From: Jannaschia sp. Os4
GTDB lineage: Bacteria > Pseudomonadota > Alphaproteobacteria > Rhodobacterales > Rhodobacteraceae
Direction of reading: 5' to 3'
Length of the DNA: 64,000 nt
NCBI RefSeq assembly: GCF_016820245.1
Contig: NZ_JAFCAR010000003.1
Location: forward strand, 205,001 to 269,000
Part shown: positions 3,139 through 48,284 of the stretch, piece after piece
How positions within the stretch are numbered: position 1 is the first letter of the stretch
How the letters are laid out: each line of letters starts with the position of its first letter
Program-made: the position numbers and the translations under genes
The notes under the pieces: generated by a model
The model's input: only the letters and a program-made list of their open reading frames with translations
Database searches by the model: none
What the model was told of the DNA's origin: nothing

Positions 3139-4338
3139 ATGAAGACGATCGTGCTGGGAGGGGATGGCTTCTGCGGTTGGCCGACCGCGCTGCACCTGTC
3201 GGCGCGGGGGCACGAGGTCGCCATCGTCGACGACCTGTCCCGCCGGGCGATCGACGCGCAGCTCGGCGTCGAGAGCCTCACGCCGATCCGATCCATGGAG
3301 CAGCGCCTCGCGGCATGGGCCGAGGTGGCCGGGCGGTCGATCGGCTTCCACGAGTTCGACGTCGCGACCGACTACGACCGCCTCCTCGACCTGTTCCTCG
3401 CCGAGCGTCCCGACACGATTGTGCACTTCGCGGAGCAGCGCGCCGCGCCGTTCTCGATGAAGTCGAGCGCCCACAAGCGATACACCGTCTCCAACAACCT
3501 CAACGCGACGCACAACGTCCTCGCCGCGATGGTCGAGGCGGGGCTCGACGCGCATCTGGTCCATCTCGGAACGATGGGCGTCTACGGCTACGGAACCGCC
3601 GGCGTGACCATCCCCGAGGGCTATCTCAACGTCCGGATCGACACGCCCGCGGGAGCGACGCCGAAGGACATCCTGTACCCGACCGACCCCGGCTCGATCT
3701 ACCACCTCACCAAGAGCCAGGATCAACTGTTCTTCGCGTTCTACAACCGGAACGACGGCCTGCGGATCACCGACCTCCACCAAGGGATCGTGTGGGGCAC
3801 GCAGACGGAGGAGACGAAGCGCGACGACCGGCTCGTGAACCGCTTCGACTATGACGGCGACTACGGCACCGTGCTCAACCGCTTCGTCATGCAGGCGGCC
3901 GTCGGGCACCCGATCACCGTCCATGGCACGGGCGGGCAGACGCGCGCCTTCATCCACATCCAGGATACGGTGCGATGCATCGAGCTCGCCGCCGCGAACC
4001 CTCCGGCGCCGGGCGACCGGGTGAACATCCTCAACCAGACCACGGAGACGCATCGGGTCCGCGACCTCGCGCGGATGGTGGCCGAGCGCATGGGGGGCGA
4101 GGTCGCGTACCTGCCCAATCCGCGCAACGAGACGGCGGAGAACGAGCTTCGCGTCGCGAACGATCGCTTCCTCGCGCTGGGACTGGATCCCGTTCGCTTG
4201 GAGGCCGGCCTGCTCGAGGAGATCCGCGACGTCGCGCTGCGACATCGCGACCGGTGCGACCTGTCGAAGATCCCCGCGCGGGCGGCGTGGAACAGGGCGG
4301 CGGCCTCCCGGATCGGCGAGGCGGGCGAGCCTACGTGA
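3139..4338 (+). CDS. sqdB: UDP-sulfoquinovose synthase-family epimerase (SqdB)
   Basis: 399 aa, short-chain dehydrogenase/epimerase fold. In the family, this enzyme builds UDP-sulfoquinovose from UDP-glucose and sulfite, the donor for sulfolipid SQDG. The N-terminal NAD motif is 'GGDGFCGWPTALHL' (residues 7-20). The family signature 'SLTPI' lies near 50, 'VHFAEQRAAPFSM' near 95-107, the catalytic Thr in 'LGTMGVYGYG' near 143, and the Tyr-x-x-x-Lys pair in 'SIYHLTK'. 'HGTGGQTRAFIHI' matches the family's sugar-binding segment. It is the first gene of a four-gene operon in which each stop overlaps the next start by 4 nt. A second, diverged homologue is at 51559-52713. The fold and family are sure. 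Sulfolipid as the end product is inferred, because the neighbours are not a classical sqdA/C/D set. Confidence 0.8.
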   Translation: MKTIVLGGDGFCGWPTALHLSARGHEVAIVDDLSRRAIDAQLGVESLTPIRSMEQRLAAWAEVAGRSIGFHEFDVATDYDRLLDLFLAERPDTIVHFAEQRAAPFSMKSSAHKRYTVSNNLNATHNVLAAMVEAGLDAHLVHLGTMGVYGYGTAGVTIPEGYLNVRIDTPAGATPKDILYPTDPGSIYHLTKSQDQLFFAFYNRNDGLRITDLHQGIVWGTQTEETKRDDRLVNRFDYDGDYGTVLNRFVMQAAVGHPITVHGTGGQTRAFIHIQDTVRCIELAAANPPAPGDRVNILNQTTETHRVRDLARMVAERMGGEVAYLPNPRNETAENELRVANDRFLALGLDPVRLEAGLLEEIRDVALRHRDRCDLSKIPARAAWNRAAASRIGEAGEPT

Positions 4339-39144: not shown

Positions 39145-39834
39145 ATGCCCCAATCCCGACTGGAGACCGCGTTCTGGACCGCCGCGGCCGCCGCGCTGCT
39201 GGCGCTGGCGGTCCTGGGGTGGTGGGCGTGGGCCGCCGTGGCGGCGGCCTGCCTCGCGCTGACGGCGCTGCTGCCCGCGTTCACCGCCGTGTCGGGGCTG
39301 CGCTTCCCGGTGCGCCTGACGGTGGGGGTGGCGGCGTTCTGCGCGGGCGCGCTGCTGTTCGGGGAACTCGGCGACGGCTACGAGATGGTGCCGTGGTGGG
39401 ACATGGCGCTGCACGTCGTGTCGATGGCCGCGCTCGCGGTGGTGGGGACGGCGCTGGCGCTGCTGCCCACCGGGGGCGCGCGGCCCCGGACGCCGGTCTG
39501 GGTGCTGGCGACGCTGGCCTTCGGCTTCGCGATGATGGTGGGCGCGCTGTGGGAGGTGATGGAGTTCGGGCTGGACGCGGCCTTCGGGTTCGAGACGCAG
39601 GACACCGGGCTGGACGACACGATGTGGGACGTGATCGCCAACGCGGTCGGCGCGCTCTGGGGCGCGGCGGCCGGTGCGGTGGCGCTGGTGCGGGGGCGGG
39701 GCTGGGTGCCGGGGGGGCTTCTGCTGGACTGGATCGCGCTGAACCCGGTGCTCTACCCGCTGTGGTCAGGCCCGTTCGAGGCGGGCCGCCGCCCGCTCCC
39801 CGGCGAGGACCGCGCCCTCCAGCGTGGCGGGTAG
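39145..39834 (+). CDS. DUF2238/YjdF-like membrane protein
   Basis: 229 aa with about six hydrophobic segments. Signature blocks 'WWDMALHVVSMAALAVVG' near 92 and 'GALWEVMEFGLDAAFG' near 133, then 'DTMWDVIANAVGALWGA' near 155. These His, Glu and Asp inside the membrane are typical for the family, whose function is unknown. Start at ATG 39145 with 'aaggaa' nearby. Its 3' end overlaps the convergent hpnE gene by 69 nt, an unusually long convergent overlap. Confidence 0.85.
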   Translation: MPQSRLETAFWTAAAAALLALAVLGWWAWAAVAAACLALTALLPAFTAVSGLRFPVRLTVGVAAFCAGALLFGELGDGYEMVPWWDMALHVVSMAALAVVGTALALLPTGGARPRTPVWVLATLAFGFAMMVGALWEVMEFGLDAAFGFETQDTGLDDTMWDVIANAVGALWGAAAGAVALVRGRGWVPGGLLLDWIALNPVLYPLWSGPFEAGRRPLPGEDRALQRGG

Positions 39835-40998
39835 CCCCGTCGCGGCGTGATCGCCCGCGAGGGCGAGGTTGGGCCACTTGGTGCCCGGGCCGGTGCGGGT
39901 GCGGATGGCCTGCGGGGACTGGTCGAAGGTCGCGTTCTTCTCCTTGATGAGCCGGGCCGTGGGCATGGCGTCGGGGACCGCCGCGCCGTGGGCGCGGGCC
40001 GCGGCGGCGACGTCCCGCCAGAGGGTCTCGAGGGCCGCCTCGCGGGTGGCGGGCAGGCCCGCGCTCTCGGCGGCGGAGACGGTGACGGAGACGACGTCGC
40101 CGCGCCGGAACAGCCAGTGGGAGGTGCCGCCCAGCAGGGCGAGGATCGGGGGTAGCCCGCTGTCGGGCAGGAGGAAGTGCGCGTTGGCGATGGTCTTGCC
40201 CGCCGGCGGGGCGTCGTGGCCGAGCAGCTGCGCGGCGTGGTGGGACGGGGTGGCGAGGACGGCGACGTCCGTGGGGCCGAGATCGACGGGGCCGTCGCGG
40301 GTCTCGATGCGCGCGAGGCGGTCGGCGCCGTGGAGCGCCGTGACGGGGGTGCGGAGGCGGAGGTCCGCGCCGCGCGCGGCGAGGAGGTCGAGGGCGGGGT
40401 CGATCAGCGCGGGGCCGAGGCCGTCGGGGGCGAGGACCGGGCGGCTGTGCCGCGCCCCGCGCGCGAAGGAGCGGAGCATGGTGCGGGCGAGGAGCCGGGC
40501 GCTGCCGTCCTGCGGATCCTCGTTGAGGACGGCGCGGGTCATGGGATCCCAGAAGGCGCGCCAGAGCGGGCCGCGGTCGGGGATGGCCTGCGCCACGGTG
40601 CCCGGATGGCCGAGGGCGCGGGCGATCTGGAGGCCCAGCCTCGCCAGCGAGGTGCCGGGGGGGCGGGCCTCCGCGGCGGCGGCCCCGAGCGGCCCCCTGC
40701 CGGGCCGGATGGTCCAGCGGTCGCCGGAGGCGAGGTCGAGGAAGGGGAAGGCGGCATCGCCCGTGCGCAGCCCGTCCGCCCCGCCGATGCGCTCGGCCCA
40801 CGCGAGGACGCGGGCGTTGGCCGACAGGATCAGGTGGTTGCCGTTGTCGATCACCCGGCCCAGCCGCTCGTCGCGGTAGGAGCGGCAGCGCCCGCCGGCC
40901 TTGGGCGACGCCTCCAGCAGCGTGACGGGGCGGGTGCGGGACAGGGCCTCCGCGGCGACGAGGCCGGACAGGCCCGCGCCGATGACGTATGCCCTCAC
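39766..40998 (-). CDS. hpnE: HpnE, squalene-forming FAD oxidoreductase
   Basis: 410 aa amine-oxidase fold. In the HpnC-D-E route, HpnE reduces hydroxysqualene to squalene. FAD motif 'AYVIGAGLSGLVAAEAL' (3-19) and 'GGRCRSYRDERLGRVIDNGNH' (split near 35-55), then 'NEDPQDGSARL' near 153, and the closing 'ALAGDHAATGLPATLEGAVL'. GTG start overlapping the hpnD stop (GTGA). It is last of hpnC-hpnD-hpnE, divergent from the carotenoid desaturase operon, which points to squalene as feedstock for C30 carotenoids. Confidence 0.92.
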   Translation of the reverse strand: MRAYVIGAGLSGLVAAEALSRTRPVTLLEASPKAGGRCRSYRDERLGRVIDNGNHLILSANARVLAWAERIGGADGLRTGDAAFPFLDLASGDRWTIRPGRGPLGAAAAEARPPGTSLARLGLQIARALGHPGTVAQAIPDRGPLWRAFWDPMTRAVLNEDPQDGSARLLARTMLRSFARGARHSRPVLAPDGLGPALIDPALDLLAARGADLRLRTPVTALHGADRLARIETRDGPVDLGPTDVAVLATPSHHAAQLLGHDAPPAGKTIANAHFLLPDSGLPPILALLGGTSHWLFRRGDVVSVTVSAAESAGLPATREAALETLWRDVAAAARAHGAAVPDAMPTARLIKEKNATFDQSPQAIRTRTGPGTKWPNLALAGDHAATGLPATLEGAVLAGERAAARLERA

Positions 40999-41855
40999 CC
41001 CTTCGCGGCCCGTGCGAGGCCGTGGCGGAGCTTGGCGACCGTGGAGGGGCGGGGCGGCGGGGCGGACCAGTCGCGCTCCATGGTGGCCAGCATCCGCTCG
41101 TAGGGGCCCATCATCAGCAGCGCCGGCAGCAGCGGAAGGCGGCGGTGCACGGGGACCAGCGCGGCGGCCTCGTCGAAGGCGGCGCGGGCCTGCGCGCCGA
41201 CGAGGGCGCGGGCCGCGGGGAGCGACGGGTGCGCGGGGGCGTCCGTGGCGCAGTGGGGGATGCCCACCGCCGTCAGGGCGGGGGCGGGCAGGTAGAGGCG
41301 GCCGCGGCCCGCGTCCTCCTCGACGTCGCGCAGGATGTTGGTGAGCTGCAGGCCGCGGGCGAGGGACAGGGCGAAGCGCTCGGACGGGGCGCCGATCCAC
41401 GCGCCGAAGCAGCGCATCGAGAGGATGCCCACCGCGCCCGCGACGCGGCGGACGTAGGCGTGCAGTTCGGCGTCGGAGGGGGCGACGATGGGGACGGCGT
41501 CCATGCGCATCCCGTCGATCACGAGGTCGAACTCGCCGCGCGGCAGGTCGAACGCCTCGGCGGAGCGCGCCACCTCGGCCCCGATCGCGGAGCGGGGCGC
41601 GCCGCGGAAGGCGGCGTCGATCTCGTCGGCCCAGCGGTCGAGCCCCGCCTTGCGGCCCTGCGCGGTGTCGGAGCCGGGCGCGTCGCCGTCCGCGATGTCG
41701 TCGACCACGCGGCAGAGCGCGTAGACCGCGTGGATCGCGCGGCGGCGGGCGCGGGGCAGCACGCGCATCCCCGCCGCGAAGCTGGAGCCTGCGGCGGCGA
41801 CGACGCGGCGGACCTCCTCTGCGTCGGCGGTGGCGGTGGTCGGCGGGACGATCAT
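40995..41855 (-). CDS. hpnD: HpnD, presqualene diphosphate synthase
   Basis: 286 aa, squalene/phytoene synthase family. HpnD condenses two farnesyl-PP to presqualene-PP. First Asp-rich motif 'RVVDDIADGD' near 49, second 'LQLTNILRDVEEDAGRGRLY' near 168-187. 'SSFAAGMRVLPRARRRAIHA' near 24 is the family's entry segment. Overlaps hpnC (ATGA) and hpnE (GTGA). Phytoene synthase CrtB is the alternative, but its pairing with HpnC and HpnE favours HpnD. Confidence 0.9.
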   Translation of the reverse strand: MIVPPTTATADAEEVRRVVAAAGSSFAAGMRVLPRARRRAIHAVYALCRVVDDIADGDAPGSDTAQGRKAGLDRWADEIDAAFRGAPRSAIGAEVARSAEAFDLPRGEFDLVIDGMRMDAVPIVAPSDAELHAYVRRVAGAVGILSMRCFGAWIGAPSERFALSLARGLQLTNILRDVEEDAGRGRLYLPAPALTAVGIPHCATDAPAHPSLPAARALVGAQARAAFDEAAALVPVHRRLPLLPALLMMGPYERMLATMERDWSAPPPRPSTVAKLRHGLARAAKG

Positions 41856-42718
41856 CGGCGCGATCCGACCACGGCGGCGGCCAGTCCCGCAAGGCCCGCG
41901 CGGGCGAAGTCGAGGCGGCTGGGCGCGATCCTGCGCGCGAGCGGGTCGCCGTGGCGCAGGCGGCGCGACAGGCGCCGGGCGAGGTCGAGGGTCGCGGTGG
42001 CCTGCGCCCGCAGGCCGCGCGCGCGGATGCGGGCGGGCAGGGGCGCGGCGGCGGCGAGCAGGTCGTCCGTGGCGTCGAGGGTGCGCCGGACGACGGCGCG
42101 CAGCGCGGGGGACATGGCGGGGGCGGTGAGGTCGGCGCGGGCGACCCCCGCCGCCTCGCGCAGGTCGAGGGGGAGGTAGCAGCGGCCTAGGCCGCGCTCG
42201 TCCGCCGCGATGTCCTGGCAGTGGTTGAGCACCTGCAGCGCGGCGCACAGCGCGTCGGAGGGGGCCTGCGCGTCCTCGCCCTCGCCGTGGACGGCGAGCA
42301 GGAAGCGCCCGACGGGCACCGCGGAGGAGGCGCAGTAGGCCATCAGGTCGTCCCAGTCCGCGCAGTCGGTCAGGGTCACGTCGCGGCGGAAGGCGGGCAG
42401 GAGGGCGCGGGCCTCCGCCAAGGCGGGCGGATCGACGAGGGCGCGGAGGTCCGATCCCTCGTTGCGGGCGGTTCCGTCGAGTCCCGCCTCGAGCGAATCG
42501 AGGCGCGCGAGGCGCGATTCCGGCGAATGGTCGCCGCCATCCGCCGCGTCGTCGGCGGCGCGGGCGAAGCGGTAGAACGCGACCACGCGGGCGCGGGTTC
42601 CGCGGGGCAGAAGTCTCGACGCCACGGGGAAATTCTCGGACGCGGCCTTGGCCCACGGGTCGGGCGCGGCGCCGGGGCGCGCGGGGGCGTTGCCGGGAAT
42701 GTCATCCACGATGGACAT
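41852..42718 (-). CDS. hpnC: HpnC, hydroxysqualene synthase
   Basis: 288 aa, second member of the squalene/phytoene synthase family in this operon. HpnC turns presqualene-PP into hydroxysqualene. 'ENFPVASRLLPRGTRARVVA' near 29, first Asp-rich region 'ARAADDAADGG' near 53, second 'NHCQDIAADERGLGRCYLP' near 160. ATG at 42718 is used; a TTG nine codons upstream is possible. First gene of the hpnCDE operon, with 86 nt to the divergent operon. Confidence 0.9.
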   Translation of the reverse strand: MSIVDDIPGNAPARPGAAPDPWAKAASENFPVASRLLPRGTRARVVAFYRFARAADDAADGGDHSPESRLARLDSLEAGLDGTARNEGSDLRALVDPPALAEARALLPAFRRDVTLTDCADWDDLMAYCASSAVPVGRFLLAVHGEGEDAQAPSDALCAALQVLNHCQDIAADERGLGRCYLPLDLREAAGVARADLTAPAMSPALRAVVRRTLDATDDLLAAAAPLPARIRARGLRAQATATLDLARRLSRRLRHGDPLARRIAPSRLDFARAGLAGLAAAVVGSRR

Positions 42719-42804
42719 GCCTTTGCGCGATCTCCGGAAGGTCAAGGCCGTGACAAGCCGTTTCGCTGTTCTAGGTCGCCCTTCGCATGGAGGAAGGGTG
42801 TAAC
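42719..42804. promoter_or_regulatory. Divergent promoter of squalene and C30 carotenoid operons
   Basis: 86 nt separate hpnC (minus) from the DUF2141 gene (plus), so both promoters must lie here or overlap the coding starts. A strong ribosome site 'ggaggaaggg' (42789-42798) precedes the DUF2141 start. No clear operator palindrome was seen. Confidence 0.5.
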
Positions 42805-43230
42805 ATGCGGTTTACATCGACGCGCGCCGCCTTGGCCACGCTCGCCCTGTCCGCAGGGATCGCCGCGCCTGCGGCGGCGGGGGACGTGACGGTGACCGTG
42901 GAGGGGCTGCGCAACGGCGCGGGCCTGATCCGCGCCGCCGTGTGCCCGCCGGAGACGTTCACCAAGCCGGGCTGTCCCTACGTGGGCGCGGCGCGGGCGT
43001 CCGGAGGGCGGGTCACCGTCACCGGCGTGCCCGACGGCGTCTACGCCGTGCAGGTCTTCCACGACGAGGACGCGGACGGCGCCTTGGACCGCAACGGGTT
43101 CTGGCCGACCGAGGGCCTCGGTTTCTCCAACGACGCGCCCATGCGGATGGGCCCCCCTCGCTTCCGGGACGCCGCCGTGCGGGTCACCGGGGGCGGATCG
43201 ATCAGACTGAACGTGAGGTACTTCCCATGA
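42805..43230 (+). CDS. DUF2141 secreted protein
   Basis: 141 aa. Signal peptide 'MRFTSTRAALATLALSAG' to about residue 26 (Ala-Ala-Ala-Gly), then a beta-rich domain: 'VTVTVEGLRNGAGLIRAAVC', 'GVPDGVYAVQVFHDEDADG' and 'NGFWPTEGLGFSNDA', the DUF2141 signature. Two Cys could pair. The family has no assigned role but recurs beside carotenoid genes, and here it opens the desaturase operon and overlaps crtN (ATGA). A job in carrying or placing the finished pigment in the envelope is a guess. Confidence 0.88.
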   Translation: MRFTSTRAALATLALSAGIAAPAAAGDVTVTVEGLRNGAGLIRAAVCPPETFTKPGCPYVGAARASGGRVTVTGVPDGVYAVQVFHDEDADGALDRNGFWPTEGLGFSNDAPMRMGPPRFRDAAVRVTGGGSIRLNVRYFP

Positions 43231-44798
43231 ATGCCGTCTCCGGCATCACCCCGAAGAAGGCCGTCGTCGTCGGCGCCGGCCCCGGTGGCCTCGCCACCGC
43301 GATGCTGATGCGCGCCGCGGGCGCCGAGGTCACGCTGATCGAGCGGGAGGACCGCGTCGGCGGGCGCACCGCGTCGTTCACGCAGGACGGGTTCACCTTC
43401 GACTACGGGCCGACCTTCTACCTCTACCCGGAGGTGCTGCAGGAGATCTTCCAAGCCTGCGGACGCGACCTCTTCGAGGAGGTCGAGATGGTGAAGCTGG
43501 ACCCGATGTACCGGCTCCAGTTCGACAGCGGGGTCACGTTCGACGCGACGCCCGACGTCGAGCGGCTGACGGCGGAGGCGGCCAAGATCGACCCCACGGA
43601 CGCGGTCAACGTGCCCGCCTACCTGCAGGAGCAGATCGACAAGTTCGCCGTCTTCAAGCCGATCCTGCAGCGCCCCTTCAACGGTCCGGCGGACCTCGTG
43701 AAGCCGGACATGCTCAAGGCGTTCCCGCTGTTCCGCCCGTGGCTCACGGTGGACCAGGACCTGCGGCGCTTCTTCAAGTCCGAGGACCTGCGCCTCGCCT
43801 TCAGCTTCCAGTCGAAATACCTCGGCATGTCGCCGTTCAAGTGCCCCTCGCTGTTCACGATCGTGGCGCATGTCGAGTACGGGTTCGGGGTGTTCCACCC
43901 GATCGGCGGCTGCAACGCGATCCCCCGCGCGATGGCGCGGGTGGCCAGTGAGATCGGCGTGGACGTGCGCCTGAACGAGCCGGTCGAGGAGATCGAGTTC
44001 GACGGTCGCCGCGCCACGGCCGTCCGCACCGCGACGGGCACCTACGAGGCGGACGCGATCATCGTGAACGCCGACTTCGCGTCCACGATCCGCAAGCTGA
44101 TCCCCAACGCCAAGCGCAAGCGGTGGACGGACGAGAAGATCGACTCGAAGAAGTACTCCTGCTCGACCTTCATGCTCTATCTCGGGATCGAGGGGGTCTA
44201 TAAGGATCTGTCGCACCACACGATCTACATGTCGGGCGACTACCTGAAGAACATCCAGGAGATCGACGACGGCCAAGCGCCCGAGGAGCCGACGATCTAC
44301 GTCCAGAACGCGTCCGTCACGGACCCGACGCTGGCGCCGGAGGGGCACTCGACGCTCTACGTGCTGGTGCCGACGGGCAACCTGTCGGGCGGCGTCGACT
44401 GGGCGGAGTTCGGCCCCGTCTACCGCGAGCGCATCCTCGACCGGCTGTCGAAGCTGACGGGCCACGACATCCGGCCCCGCATCCGGACCGAGCGGATGCT
44501 CACGCCGGCCGACTGGGAGTCGGAGATGGGCATCTTCCGGGGTGCCACGTTCAACCTCGCCCACAACCTCGGGCAGATGCTGCACTGGCGGCCGCGGAAC
44601 CGGTTCGAGGACGTGGACGGCGTCTACCTGACCGGGGGCGGGACGCATCCGGGGAGCGGATTGCCCACGATCTTCGAGAGCGCGCGGATCGCGTCGCGGC
44701 TGGCGGCGGACGACCTCGGACTGGACAGCTCCCAACTTCCGCAGAAGCTGCCGACGCAGCCTCTGCCCAACAGCACCTTCAAGGAGGCCGCGGAATGA
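43227..44798 (+). CDS. crtN: C30 carotenoid desaturase (CrtN/CrtI-type)
   Basis: 523 aa FAD-dependent desaturase/oxidase. Dinucleotide motif 'VVVGAGPGGLATAMLMRAAG' (13-32), 'DRVGGRTASF' near 43, 'FDYGPTFYLYPEVLQEIF' near 58 and the C-terminal carotenoid-oxidoreductase signature 'GVYLTGGGTHPGSGLPTIFE' near 474. In a squalene route it would introduce conjugated double bonds into squalene, giving diapolycopene-type C30 chains. Coupled by ATGA to the genes on both sides. The crtN label, and its exact division of labour with the next gene, are inferred from context. Confidence 0.8.
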   Translation: MNAVSGITPKKAVVVGAGPGGLATAMLMRAAGAEVTLIEREDRVGGRTASFTQDGFTFDYGPTFYLYPEVLQEIFQACGRDLFEEVEMVKLDPMYRLQFDSGVTFDATPDVERLTAEAAKIDPTDAVNVPAYLQEQIDKFAVFKPILQRPFNGPADLVKPDMLKAFPLFRPWLTVDQDLRRFFKSEDLRLAFSFQSKYLGMSPFKCPSLFTIVAHVEYGFGVFHPIGGCNAIPRAMARVASEIGVDVRLNEPVEEIEFDGRRATAVRTATGTYEADAIIVNADFASTIRKLIPNAKRKRWTDEKIDSKKYSCSTFMLYLGIEGVYKDLSHHTIYMSGDYLKNIQEIDDGQAPEEPTIYVQNASVTDPTLAPEGHSTLYVLVPTGNLSGGVDWAEFGPVYRERILDRLSKLTGHDIRPRIRTERMLTPADWESEMGIFRGATFNLAHNLGQMLHWRPRNRFEDVDGVYLTGGGTHPGSGLPTIFESARIASRLAADDLGLDSSQLPQKLPTQPLPNSTFKEAAE

Positions 44799-46324
44799 GC
44801 ACGGTCGGGATCATCGGCGGCGGCCTCGGCGGGCTCGCGGCGGCGGCGACGCTGGCGGCGCGGGGCCACAAGGTCACGCTCCTGGAGAAGAACGGGTGGC
44901 TCGGCGGCAAGGCGGCCGTGCTGGAGGAGCAGGGGTTCCGCTTCGACATGGGGCCGACCATCCTGACGATGCCGCGCGTGCTGGAGCGCGTGTTCGGCGA
45001 GTCGGGGCGCAATCTGGGCGACTACCTCGACCTGCGCCGCCTCGACCCGCAGTGGCGGTGCTTCTACGACGACGGCACGGTGCTGGACCTGCGCAACGAC
45101 CCCAAGGAGGCGCGCGCGGCCATCGCGGCGCTGAACGCCGAGGACGGGCCGGGCTTCGACCGGTTCATGGAGGTCGCGAACCGCCTGTCCACGGTGTCGG
45201 ACAAGTTCTTCTTCTGGAAGTCGGTCGAGGACCTTCGCGACACGATGAACATGAAGGAGAACTTTTCGCTCTCGACCCTGTCGGACGTGATGGCGCTGCG
45301 GATGCACCGCACGGTGGCGGGGCAGATCAAGAAGGACATACGCGACCCGCGCGTGCGGCAGATGCTGGAGCACTTCATCCAGTATGTCGGCTCGTCGCCC
45401 TTGGCGTCGCCGGCGGTGCTCTGCGGGATCGCGCAGATGCAGCAGGGCGAGGGGGTGTGGTATCCGATGGGCGGCACCCGCGCCGTGCCCGTGGCGCTGA
45501 CCCGGCTGGGCGAGGAGCTGGGCGTCGACTACCGCACCGGCGTCGACGTGCAGCGGATCGTCGTGGAGGACGGGCGCGCCGTGGCCGTGGAGGCGGACGG
45601 CGAGGTGATGCGCTTCGACAAGGTCGTGTCGAACATGGATTCGGTGCGGACATACAAGGAGCTGATCGGCGGCTCGGCGTGGACGGACTTCGGCTATCAG
45701 AAGCGGGAGGCGGCGTGCTCGGGCGTGGTGCTCTACCTCGGGCTGAACAAGGCCTACGAGCACATCGCGCACCACAACTTCGTCTTCTCGCGCGACCCGG
45801 AGGAGGAGTTCGACGCGATCTACGACCGCGGCGTCCCCGCGCCCGATCCGACCGCCTACATCGCCGCGCCGATGCGGACCGAGGCGGGGTCGCCCACGGC
45901 CTGCGCGCCGGAGGGGGGCGAGGCGCTCTACATCCTCGTGCACACGCCGCACCTGCGCGACGGGCACGACTGGTCCAAGATGCTGCCGGAGTATCGGCAG
46001 GTCATCATGGACAAGCTGGCCCGCGCGGCCGGGATGGAGGACCTGGAGGAGCGGATCGTGTTCGAGCGGACGCTGACGCCGCAGGACATCCACGACCGCT
46101 ACAAGGTGCTGGACGGGGCGATCTACGGGCTGGTGAGCCACGGCAAGATGATGGGCGCGTTCAAGCCGGGGAACCGCTCGCGCCAGGTGGGCGACCTCTA
46201 CCTCGCGGGGGGCTCGGCCCATCCGGGGCCGGGGATGCCGATGGCGCTGATGTCCGGGTGGATCGCCGCCGACAGCCTGCATCAGGACGCCATCGCCAAC
46301 GAACCCGCGATGGCGGCGGAGTGA
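44795..46324 (+). CDS. crtP: C30 carotenoid oxidase/desaturase (CrtP/CrtI-type)
   Basis: 509 aa, paralogue of the preceding gene. 'GIIGGGLGGLAAAATLAARG' (5-24), 'WLGGKAAVLEEQGFRFDMGP' near 34-53 and C-terminal 'DLYLAGGSAHPGPGMPMALM' near 466. In known C30 pathways a second CrtN-like enzyme (CrtP/CrtNb) oxidises the terminal methyl groups to aldehydes or acids. That role fits here because an acyltransferase and a glycosyltransferase follow. Desaturation shared with the first gene is the alternative. Confidence 0.78.
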   Translation: MSTVGIIGGGLGGLAAAATLAARGHKVTLLEKNGWLGGKAAVLEEQGFRFDMGPTILTMPRVLERVFGESGRNLGDYLDLRRLDPQWRCFYDDGTVLDLRNDPKEARAAIAALNAEDGPGFDRFMEVANRLSTVSDKFFFWKSVEDLRDTMNMKENFSLSTLSDVMALRMHRTVAGQIKKDIRDPRVRQMLEHFIQYVGSSPLASPAVLCGIAQMQQGEGVWYPMGGTRAVPVALTRLGEELGVDYRTGVDVQRIVVEDGRAVAVEADGEVMRFDKVVSNMDSVRTYKELIGGSAWTDFGYQKREAACSGVVLYLGLNKAYEHIAHHNFVFSRDPEEEFDAIYDRGVPAPDPTAYIAAPMRTEAGSPTACAPEGGEALYILVHTPHLRDGHDWSKMLPEYRQVIMDKLARAAGMEDLEERIVFERTLTPQDIHDRYKVLDGAIYGLVSHGKMMGAFKPGNRSRQVGDLYLAGGSAHPGPGMPMALMSGWIAADSLHQDAIANEPAMAAE

Positions 46325-46325
46325 G

Positions 46326-46376
46326 GCAGATCCTTAGCTGAGGATCTGCGGGGCGGACCCTTCCGAAGGGTCCGCC
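46326..46376 (+). repeat. Tandem double hairpin inside the carotenoid operon
   Basis: 'gcagatcct'/'aggatctgc' (46326-46334, 46341-46349) and 'ggcggaccctt'/'aagggtccgcc' (46352-46362, 46366-46376, loop ccg). Built like the element at 19538-19583. It lies between crtP and the acyltransferase gene, so it may attenuate transcription of the two tailoring genes. A fresh ribosome site 'ggaggagg' follows at 46381. Confidence 0.65.
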
Positions 46377-46392
46377 GACCGGAGGAGGCCGC

Positions 46393-47157
46393 ATGGAGCG
46401 GATCGACGACGACCCCGTCGCGCTGCGCGACCCCCGCCGCGTCCGCTTCTTCGAGTGGATCATGGCGCGGCAGGTGCGCGCGGGCTTCCGCGCGCTGCGC
46501 GTGCTGCGCCCGAGCGTGCCCGCGACGGACCCGGCGCGCCCGCTGATCGTCTACGCGAACCACCCCGGCTGGTGGGATCCGGCGGTGTTCCTGTGCCTGC
46601 ACGTCGCGCGGTTCGGGGACCGCCACGCCTACGGGCCGATGGAGGCGGCGGCGCTGGAGCGCTACGGCTTCATGAAGCGGATCGGCATGTGGGGCGTGGC
46701 GCCGGGCACGCGGGCGGGGGCGGCGCGGTTCCTGCGGGTGGGGGAGCGCGTGCTCTCCGATCCGGGACGGATGATCTGGATGACGGCGCAGGGGCGCTTC
46801 GCCGACCCGCGCGAGCGGCCCGTGGCGCTGATGGGCGGGCTGTCCGCGCTGATGGGGCGGACGGGCGCGGTCGCGCTGCCGTTGGCGCTGGAATACCCGT
46901 TCTGGTCCGAGAAGCGGCCCGAGGCGCTGGCCGCGTTCGGGACGATACAGGAGGACCCGGCCGGGCTGGCCGAGGCGCTGGAGGGGGCGATGGACCGCCT
47001 CGCCGCCGCCGCCGTCGCGCGCGACCCCGCGCCCTTCGACACCGTGTCGCGGGGGGCACAGGGGACGGGGGGCGTCTATGGCGCTTGGAAGCGCCTCCAT
47101 GCGATGTTCCGGGGCGAGCGGCACGATCCCGCGCATCTGACGGACGAGAGCCGATGA
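46393..47157 (+). CDS. PlsC-type acyltransferase, probable carotenoid acylation
   Basis: 254 aa lysophospholipid-acyltransferase-like fold. The catalytic N-H-x4-D motif is 'YANHPGWWDPAVFL' near 53-66; 'YGPMEAAALERYGFMKRIGM' near 78 and 'MIWMTAQGRFADPRERP' near 126 are the substrate-binding blocks. Similar enzymes sit in C30 carotenoid clusters and acylate the sugar of glycosylated carotenoids, as CrtO does for staphyloxanthin by role (not by fold). Overlaps the glycosyltransferase start (ATGA). An ordinary phospholipid role is less likely given the setting. Confidence 0.82.
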   Translation: MERIDDDPVALRDPRRVRFFEWIMARQVRAGFRALRVLRPSVPATDPARPLIVYANHPGWWDPAVFLCLHVARFGDRHAYGPMEAAALERYGFMKRIGMWGVAPGTRAGAARFLRVGERVLSDPGRMIWMTAQGRFADPRERPVALMGGLSALMGRTGAVALPLALEYPFWSEKRPEALAAFGTIQEDPAGLAEALEGAMDRLAAAAVARDPAPFDTVSRGAQGTGGVYGAWKRLHAMFRGERHDPAHLTDESR

Positions 47158-48284
47158 CCCTGCTTGGATACCTCGCGCTGGCCGCGCTCGTGCTGGCCTC
47201 GATCTACGTGTCCACGACCTTCGTGAACCTCGTGCTGTTCCGCGCCCCCCGCGCGGTGGCCGAGGGAATGCCGGAGGTCTCGGTCCTGATCCCGGCCCGC
47301 GACGAGGCGGACAACATCCGCGCGGCGCTCGACGGGGCGCTCGCGCAATGGGGCGTCGAGGTGGAGGTCGTCGTGCTCGACGACGGTTCGACCGACGGGA
47401 CGGACGGGATCGTGGCCGAGTACGCGGCGCGCGACCCGCGCGTCCGGCTGGTGCGGGGCGCCGACCTTCCCGCCGGGTGGAACGGCAAGCAGCACGCCTG
47501 CCACCAGCTGTCGCAGGCGGCGTCGCACCCGGTGCTGCTGTTCGTGGACGCGGACGTGCGTCTGGCGCCCGACGCGGCGGCGCGGATGCGGGGCTACATG
47601 CAGGCGCGCGGGCTCGATCTCGTGTCCGGCTTCCCGCGCCAGGTCACCGGCTCCTTGGCCGAGCGGGTCGCGATCCCGCAGATCCTGATGCTGCTGCTCG
47701 GCTACCTGCCCTTCGCCTTCGCCCGGCTGTCGAACTCGCCGGGGTTCGCCGCCGGGTGCGGCCAGCTGATGATGGTGACCGCCGGCGCCTACGCGGCGGC
47801 GGGCGGGCACGCGGCCTTCCGCGACCGGATGCATGACGGGCTGAACCTGCCGCGCAACGTGCGGCTGTCGGGCGGGCGGACGGACATCCTCGACGCCACC
47901 CCGCTGGCGGTGACGCGGATGTACGACAACTGGCCGGACATCGTGTCGGGCTTCTCGAAGAACGCGACCGAGGGGATGGCCAAGCCGGTCGCCCTGCCGG
48001 TCTGGACGGTGCTCTTGGCGGGGGGGCACCTGCTGCCGTTCCTGACGCTGGCGCTGGGGCTGCTCTTCGGGGCGGAGGACGCGGTGACGTTCTCGGCCTC
48101 CGCGCTGGGCCTCGTCCTCGCGGCGCGGGCGCTGCTGGCGTGGCGGGTCTGCCAAGGCTGGCGCGCGGTGCTGCTGCACCCGGCGGGCGTGGTCGTGACG
48201 CTGTGGATCCAGTGGCGCGCGCTCGCCGCCGCCCGGCGGGGCGAGACCGCGACGTGGCGGGGGCGCAGCTACGAGGTCAACTGA
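47154..48284 (+). CDS. Membrane family 2 glycosyltransferase (CrtQ-like)
   Basis: 376 aa. N-terminal membrane helix 'LGYLALAALVLASIYVST', then GT2 core: 'SVLIPARDEADNIRAALDGA' near 43-62, 'VVVLDDGSTDGTDGIV' near 75, 'LFVDADVRL' with the metal D-x-D near 129, followed by C-terminal hydrophobic segments from about 285. Architecture matches CrtQ, which adds glucose to diaponeurosporenoate in Staphylococcus. Last gene of the carotenoid operon; its end overlaps the next, convergent gene by 8 nt. Confidence 0.83.
   Translation: MTLLGYLALAALVLASIYVSTTFVNLVLFRAPRAVAEGMPEVSVLIPARDEADNIRAALDGALAQWGVEVEVVVLDDGSTDGTDGIVAEYAARDPRVRLVRGADLPAGWNGKQHACHQLSQAASHPVLLFVDADVRLAPDAAARMRGYMQARGLDLVSGFPRQVTGSLAERVAIPQILMLLLGYLPFAFARLSNSPGFAAGCGQLMMVTAGAYAAAGGHAAFRDRMHDGLNLPRNVRLSGGRTDILDATPLAVTRMYDNWPDIVSGFSKNATEGMAKPVALPVWTVLLAGGHLLPFLTLALGLLFGAEDAVTFSASALGLVLAARALLAWRVCQGWRAVLLHPAGVVVTLWIQWRALAAARRGETATWRGRSYEVN

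Follow-up and report, generated by a model that had tools for sequence, protein, structure and literature searches.

A putative squalene-fed C30 carotenoid locus beside a C40 carotenoid gene set in Jannaschia sp. Os4

In Azospirillum brasilense Sp7, mutants deleted for crtNPOQ or for hpnCDE lack carotenoids, and squalene builds up in the crtNPOQ mutant (PMC13274349). In Methylobacterium extorquens AM1, deletion and complementation showed the part of the glycosyltransferase and of the acyltransferase in the C30 route, and both of the authors' aldehyde dehydrogenase (ALDH) candidates were dispensable (PMC10448405). Here we analysed a window of 64,000 nucleotides from Jannaschia sp. Os4, of the family Rhodobacteraceae (contig NZ_JAFCAR010000003.1, positions 205,001 to 269,000), in which an earlier note, made from the letters alone, had pointed to a complete-looking squalene-route C30 carotenoid locus. 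We found that this locus, at 39766..48284 of the window, very likely encodes such a pathway and yields a pigment. Since members of the same class are already known to use this mechanism, the surprise is moderate and the locus is another example of a known pathway. All eight genes are intact, with eight open frames:

39766..40998, minus strand: hpnE, hydroxysqualene dehydroxylase, 410 amino acids (aa); NCBIfam TIGR03467, 286.7 bits, above the cut-off of 283.05
40995..41855, minus strand: hpnD, presqualene diphosphate synthase, 286 aa; best NCBIfam match TIGR03465, 235.6 bits; PF00494
41852..42718, minus strand: hpnC, squalene synthase component of the three-enzyme route, 288 aa; best NCBIfam match TIGR03464, 226.3 bits
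42719..42804, no strand: divergent spacer, 86 bp, separating the starts of hpnC and the DUF2141 gene
42805..43230, plus strand: DUF2141 protein, 141 aa; PF09912, 81.7 bits
43227..44798, plus strand: oxidoreductase A, predicted CrtN-type C30 desaturase, 523 aa; crtI_fam TIGR02734, 525.3 bits (cut-off 238.1), and tree
44795..46324, plus strand: oxidoreductase B, predicted CrtP/CrtNb-type C30 terminal oxidase, 509 aa; TIGR02734, 410.3 bits (cut-off 238.1), and tree
46393..47157, plus strand: lysophospholipid-acyltransferase-like protein with an NHx4D motif, 254 aa; weak PF01553 match and A. brasilense counterpart
47154..48284, plus strand: family 2 glycosyltransferase in the CrtQ position, 376 aa; PF00535, 80.6 bits

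The gene ends and family matches bear out the layout that the earlier note had described, with hpnC, hpnD and hpnE on one strand, the five other genes on the opposite strand, and the 86-bp spacer between them. Nearly all genes had been said to be coupled by 4-nt overlaps, and this is so at five of the six same-strand junctions, the exception being the 68 bp between B and the acyltransferase gene. The N-H-x4-D motif claimed for the acyltransferase is present in the sequence, and the A. brasilense counterpart, 49% identical, passes PF01553 (31.9 bits, E 1.3e-7). For the glycosyltransferase, the NCBIfam matches to HpnB and CruG were far below cut-off.

Among the described systems close to the locus is a plasmid locus of A. 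brasilense Sp7, which by gene content and order appears to correspond to the crtNPOQ block deleted in PMC13274349. There the same order of A, B, acyltransferase and glycosyltransferase genes is found, together with a DUF2141 gene; identity is 55% for A, 64% for B, 49% for the acyltransferase and 57% over 352 aa for the glycosyltransferase. In A. brasilense, however, hpnCDE lie at a separate locus, DUF2141 is the last gene of the block and an ALDH gene adjoins the first, whereas in the window hpnCDE face away from the block across the divergent spacer and no ALDH gene is next to it. The M. extorquens AM1 genes META1p1815-1817, 3663-3665 and 3670 are alike by description, with squalene from HpnCDE, oxidoreductases of CrtN and CrtP type, a glycosyltransferase and a lysophospholipid-type acyltransferase, but they are split between two loci and hpnCDE cluster with shc (PMC10448405). 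The two oxidoreductases of the Methylomonas crtN-crtNb-crtNc system (PMC10745290) group with A and B, although squalene there comes from a single squalene synthase instead of HpnCDE, and no match to the acyl- or glycosyltransferase of the window was seen in the Methylomonas loci that we fetched. The crtMNPQO systems of Staphylococcus and Planococcus follow the same reaction order (see also PMC10448405), but start from 4,4'-diapophytoene made by CrtM and not from squalene. Planctopirus limnophila, of a different phylum and likened here by description, reportedly uses squalene from HpnCDE as its C30 precursor, an account said to date from Santana-Molina 2022.

The earlier note had asked for a phylogenetic placement of both oxidoreductases. 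A quick tree was computed from 91 of 157 gathered rows, the remainder being omitted to limit its size. A fell in a clade of 41 rows (SH-aLRT 100) that also holds the proteins in the CrtN position from Azospirillum, Methylomonas and Salimicrobium, separate from the clade of Rhodobacteraceae CrtI (SH-aLRT 100). B fell in a clade of 37 rows (SH-aLRT 99) that takes in the second oxidoreductase of both Methylomonas and Azospirillum. The genome's own CrtD lay towards the B side and outside the 37-row clade; its branch was long and paired with a Salimicrobium row. Neither A nor B, then, groups with CrtI or CrtD, and both group with C30 enzymes. The role names, CrtN-type for A and CrtP/CrtNb-type for B, are taken from gene order and from the published systems; since M. 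extorquens mutants in either oxidoreductase gene are colourless (PMC10448405), this division of labour between the two is tentative. In a tree of the synthases, the HpnC clade had an SH-aLRT of 99 and hpnD grouped with the HpnD rows (SH-aLRT 93); the best PDB match of hpnC was HpnC 4hd1.

We then considered what else the genome could do with squalene and with carotenoid precursors. The assembly that holds the window has 3.54 Mb and is 99.59% complete. The earlier note had seen no squalene-hopene cyclase in the window, and the absence extends further: the squalene/oxidosqualene cyclase profile PF13243 had no match in the whole genome, while it matched 2 of 14 control genomes. Use of the squalene for hopanoids or sterols was rejected on this ground. 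Of the four SQS_PSY proteins found, two are hpnC and hpnD, one is short, and one is a crtB (507.5 bits, cut-off 500). This crtB follows a crtI, and across from the pair lie crtA (297.4 bits, under the cut-off of 300), bchI and bchD. By bchC are a CrtD (708.8 bits, cut-off 580) and, below all cut-offs, a prenyl synthase resembling crtE. Two reaction-centre proteins are also encoded. By gene content the organism is thus a phototroph with a spheroidene-type C40 set, and with that set and a reaction centre in the genome the C30 route would be an additional, second system and not a replacement. Findings that the earlier note had named as telling against its C30 reading were a grouping of the oxidoreductases with C40 desaturases, or a genuine C40 set and C40 pigments with no C30 compounds. 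The outcome is mixed: A and B lie outside the C40 clades, but a genuine crtB, crtI, crtA, crtD and crtE-like set is in the genome.

To place the locus among its relatives, we scanned species genomes and found at least 463 relatives among 595 stretches, of which the best 80 loci were kept, including 21 from Rhodobacterales (L047-L065, L069 and L071 in our numbering). Among the matches listed, the nearest named ones by protein A were Jannaschia sp. LMIT008 (89%) and Hasllibacter halocynthiae (84%). All seven enzyme genes were present in 17 of the 21 Rhodobacterales loci, with hpnEDC on one strand and A, B, acyltransferase and glycosyltransferase on the other; the cluster is therefore not unique to this genome, and an arrangement kept so widely is beyond chance. 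Such linkage of squalene and desaturase genes is not demanded of every squalene-route C30 pathway, nor is the lack of a competing cyclase. Of the four remaining loci, three (L058, L062 and L071) lie on contigs shorter than 8 kb; the contig of the fourth, L059, is long but its block incomplete. DUF2141 accompanies 10 of the 21. Among the titles and abstract openings searched, in literature that mostly excludes subscription papers, none was recognised as describing C30 carotenoids or this locus in Rhodobacterales. The system had been called unusual, which holds for the family, where B was found at E 1e-150 or better in 9 of 394 sampled genomes, own included, but not for the genus, where 8 of 20 genomes, again including this one, carry A at 75% identity or more.

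Some of the relatives differ in ways of their own. L059, from Limimaricola variabilis CECT 8572, holds A, B and a 47-residue piece of HpnC, with no match to the acyl- or glycosyltransferase, whereas a plasmid of another L. variabilis strain (L127) carries the full block without DUF2141. On a plasmid of Microvirga ossetica, HpnC and HpnD appear as one fused protein (L129:16260-17918), 44% identical to each of the two, whose N part groups with HpnC and C part with HpnD. In the same cluster a methyltransferase gene lies between A and B (L129:11618-12700), so that a methyl-ester variant is possible there.

The 20 genomes of the genus divide into three with the C30 cluster and a reaction centre (G000, G005 and G018 in our numbering), five with the cluster and no reaction centre (G007, G008, G009, G012 and G017), 11 with a reaction centre only, and one with neither (G001). 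Each of the five carriers without a reaction centre had three SQS_PSY matches, all at or below 187 bits, against 211-245 for the crtB type in the genus. With neither a crtB-type match nor a reaction centre, these five have no recognised means of supplying A and B with phytoene, and by gene content the C30 cluster is their only recognised carotenoid route. No PF13243 match was found in seven of the eight carriers. G018 alone in the genus had one, with an SQS_PSY match beside it (G018:C6:227091-229989), and this pair has the look of a distinct locus of hopanoid type.

The raw association between the C30 cluster and phototrophy across the 20 genomes gave a Fisher p of 0.018. A species tree was built from four of eight gene matches, those omitted by judgement being plus-strand frames overlying genes on the other strand, and 7 of its 17 inner branches were starred. 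An independent-pairs test on this tree was not significant: the three pairs on supported branches averaged 1.2 in the same direction, 0 in the opposite direction and 1.8 without a difference. The link between C30 carotenoids and phototrophy is a lead only.

The genes, clades, conserved block and missing cyclase match were read from sequence; from them and the relatives we infer each catalytic step in this organism, how A and B share the work, and the end product. HpnD, HpnC and HpnE would convert two molecules of farnesyl diphosphate to squalene. A, as a CrtN type, would desaturate squalene, giving a coloured 4,4'-diapo chain, and B, as a CrtP/CrtNb type, would oxidise one or more end methyl groups to the aldehyde. 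The aldehyde may be taken to the acid by an ALDH encoded elsewhere in the genome, or by none. The glycosyltransferase would then add a sugar and the acyltransferase, presumed to act on the carotenoid glycoside, a fatty acid. All of this would proceed beside the C40 pathway of the genome and not in its place. The squalene-fed C30 route proposed in the earlier note is upheld by the tree, by the mutants of A. brasilense and M. extorquens (PMC13274349, PMC10448405) and by the lack of a cyclase match. A glycosylated and acylated acid is, on balance, the probable end product.

It is at the acid step that the locus departs from its relatives. Eight loci belonging to the Jannaschia set (L047, L048, L050-L054 and L069) have an ALDH gene after the glycosyltransferase gene, with a start estimated at no more than 73 bp from the glycosyltransferase end, and a second ALDH type lies nearby on the opposite strand in eight others (L056-L058, L060, L061, L064, L065 and L071). 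Thus 16 of the 21 Rhodobacterales loci have an ALDH gene near the cluster, and none was seen in L049, L055, L059, L062 (cut) or L063. In A. brasilense and Microvirga, too, an ALDH gene adjoins the block. The window gave no tblastn match to the cluster-linked ALDHs of relatives. Glycosylation by the known route needs oxidation to the acid, and the cluster here has no dedicated enzyme for this step. The locus is complete-looking only with a qualification: its seven enzyme genes are intact, and the ALDH of its relatives was not found. Of the earlier claim that the product is end-oxidised, glycosylated and acylated, the transferases for the last two steps are present and the cluster has no dedicated acid-forming enzyme.

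An alternative concerns the end group of the pigment. The route may stop at the 4,4'-diapo-aldehyde or dial, or a reduced alcohol may be glycosylated, giving a pigment unlike that of the ALDH-bearing relatives. The frequent linkage of ALDH to the cluster in Rhodobacterales suggests this, as does its pattern in the genus, where an orthologue (52-65% identity) occurs in six of eight carriers and is absent from G000 and G018. On the other hand, C30 pathways often have their ALDH gene outside the cluster (PMC10448405), the genome holds other ALDH-like genes (6 matches at 1e-20), and the glycosyltransferase and acyltransferase are kept; we consider such a different end less likely than not. That the cluster is silent or decaying, its genes intact and its pathway unused in a phototrophic background, would fit the absence of the ALDH from two of the three carriers that keep a reaction centre. 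All eight frames are open, however, the counterparts of A in the seven other carriers of the genus are 75-88% identical to it, and an element in the spacer, described below, is common to relatives, all of which makes disuse highly unlikely. It is extremely improbable that A or B serves the C40 pathway, as an extra phytoene desaturase or in a CrtD-like step, while squalene is made for another purpose. Although the genome has crtB, crtI, crtD and crtA, it encodes CrtI and CrtD separately, A and B belong to other clades, five carriers show no crtB-type synthase, and no cyclase was matched in the genome; from the tree placement and those five carriers we rejected a C40 role.

Several results nevertheless weigh against a squalene-fed C30 route ending in an acylated glycoside. 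The best NCBIfam matches of hpnD and hpnC are below cut-off (235.6 against 278.6 bits and 226.3 against 250.45 bits), and the best PDB match of hpnD was a CrtM (63.7 bits, against 59.9 for HpnC 4hd1), despite which a CrtM or CrtB identity of the hpnC and hpnD products was rejected on family scores and the tree. The acyltransferase itself matched PF01553 with an E of 0.0055 and 17 bits, under the cut-off of 23. In the oxidoreductase tree, 30 of 88 inner branches had support below 80, and two Salimicrobium rows, the genome's own CrtD and L094_B were on long branches. No orthologue of the cluster-linked ALDHs was found in the genome, where matches were 30-38% identical, and this makes the end group of the pigment uncertain. 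The C40 set makes cross-talk with the C30 route possible. Finally, the C30 reading in this organism is based on genes, and the precedent data come from relatives.

Three further features, one in the divergent spacer and two in the junction between B and the acyltransferase gene, may bear on expression:

42751..42777, plus strand: promoter-like element TGAC-N16-CTAGGTC; one match in the window against 0.15 expected, with 14 shuffles having one
46326..46349, no strand: inverted repeat 1, 10-pair stem with one G-U; one match against 0 expected; -14.9 kcal/mol
46352..46376, no strand: inverted repeat 2, 11-pair stem with a 3-nt loop; one place in the window, 0 expected; -22.3 kcal/mol

A looser form of the spacer element, TGA[C/T]-N16-[C/T]TA-N2-T[C/G], occurred in 9 of 19 divergent spacers, all nine within a set of ten from Jannaschia, Hasllibacter and Oceaniovalibus (the window, L047-L054 and L069). 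Mononucleotide shuffles gave it in a mean of 0.028 spacers and in 2 of 19 at most; since these data also supplied the pattern, this is a post hoc result. The element is missing from L047, the nearest relative, and a sigma-70 scan found nothing. The two inverted repeats are adjacent and lie in the sole same-strand junction without an overlap; they may tune the expression of the two tailoring genes.

The DUF2141 protein has a signal-peptide-like start, by reading of its sequence. Of 84 loci, drawn from several phyla, 21 have its gene within the block, where it adjoins the CrtN gene in all but one, and it accompanies CrtN-containing blocks in Alphaproteobacteria, Bacteriovorax, relatives of Geobacter and others. 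An AlphaFold 2 (AF2) model (pLDDT 91.9) has an Ig/CnaB-like sandwich, which is a common fold. In the alignment there is an acidic loop resembling D-x-D/N-x-D/N-G, which looks calcium-binding. DUF2141 is also found beside crtG in C40 clusters of Sphingomonadales, where its role is unknown (PMC5989583).

A wider picture can be drawn, which we offer as speculation and consider rather unlikely as a whole. The genus would exchange carotenoid classes, with C30 only in non-phototrophs, C40 only in most phototrophs, and both in three species including that of the window. Two of these three would have independently lost the C30 ALDH and so make a different pigment, possibly an aldehyde or an alcohol glycoside, and the co-operonic, secreted DUF2141 protein would handle carotenoids in the periplasm.

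In conclusion, a squalene-to-pigment block stands beside a spheroidene-type C40 set in what is, by gene content, one phototroph, and this offers a natural system for asking what C30 carotenoids add over C40. The five relatives offer the C30 route as the only recognised one. DUF2141 stands out for accompanying carotenoid genes repeatedly and without explanation, and the ALDHs linked to the cluster in relatives are candidates for the step whose enzyme was not identified in M. extorquens.

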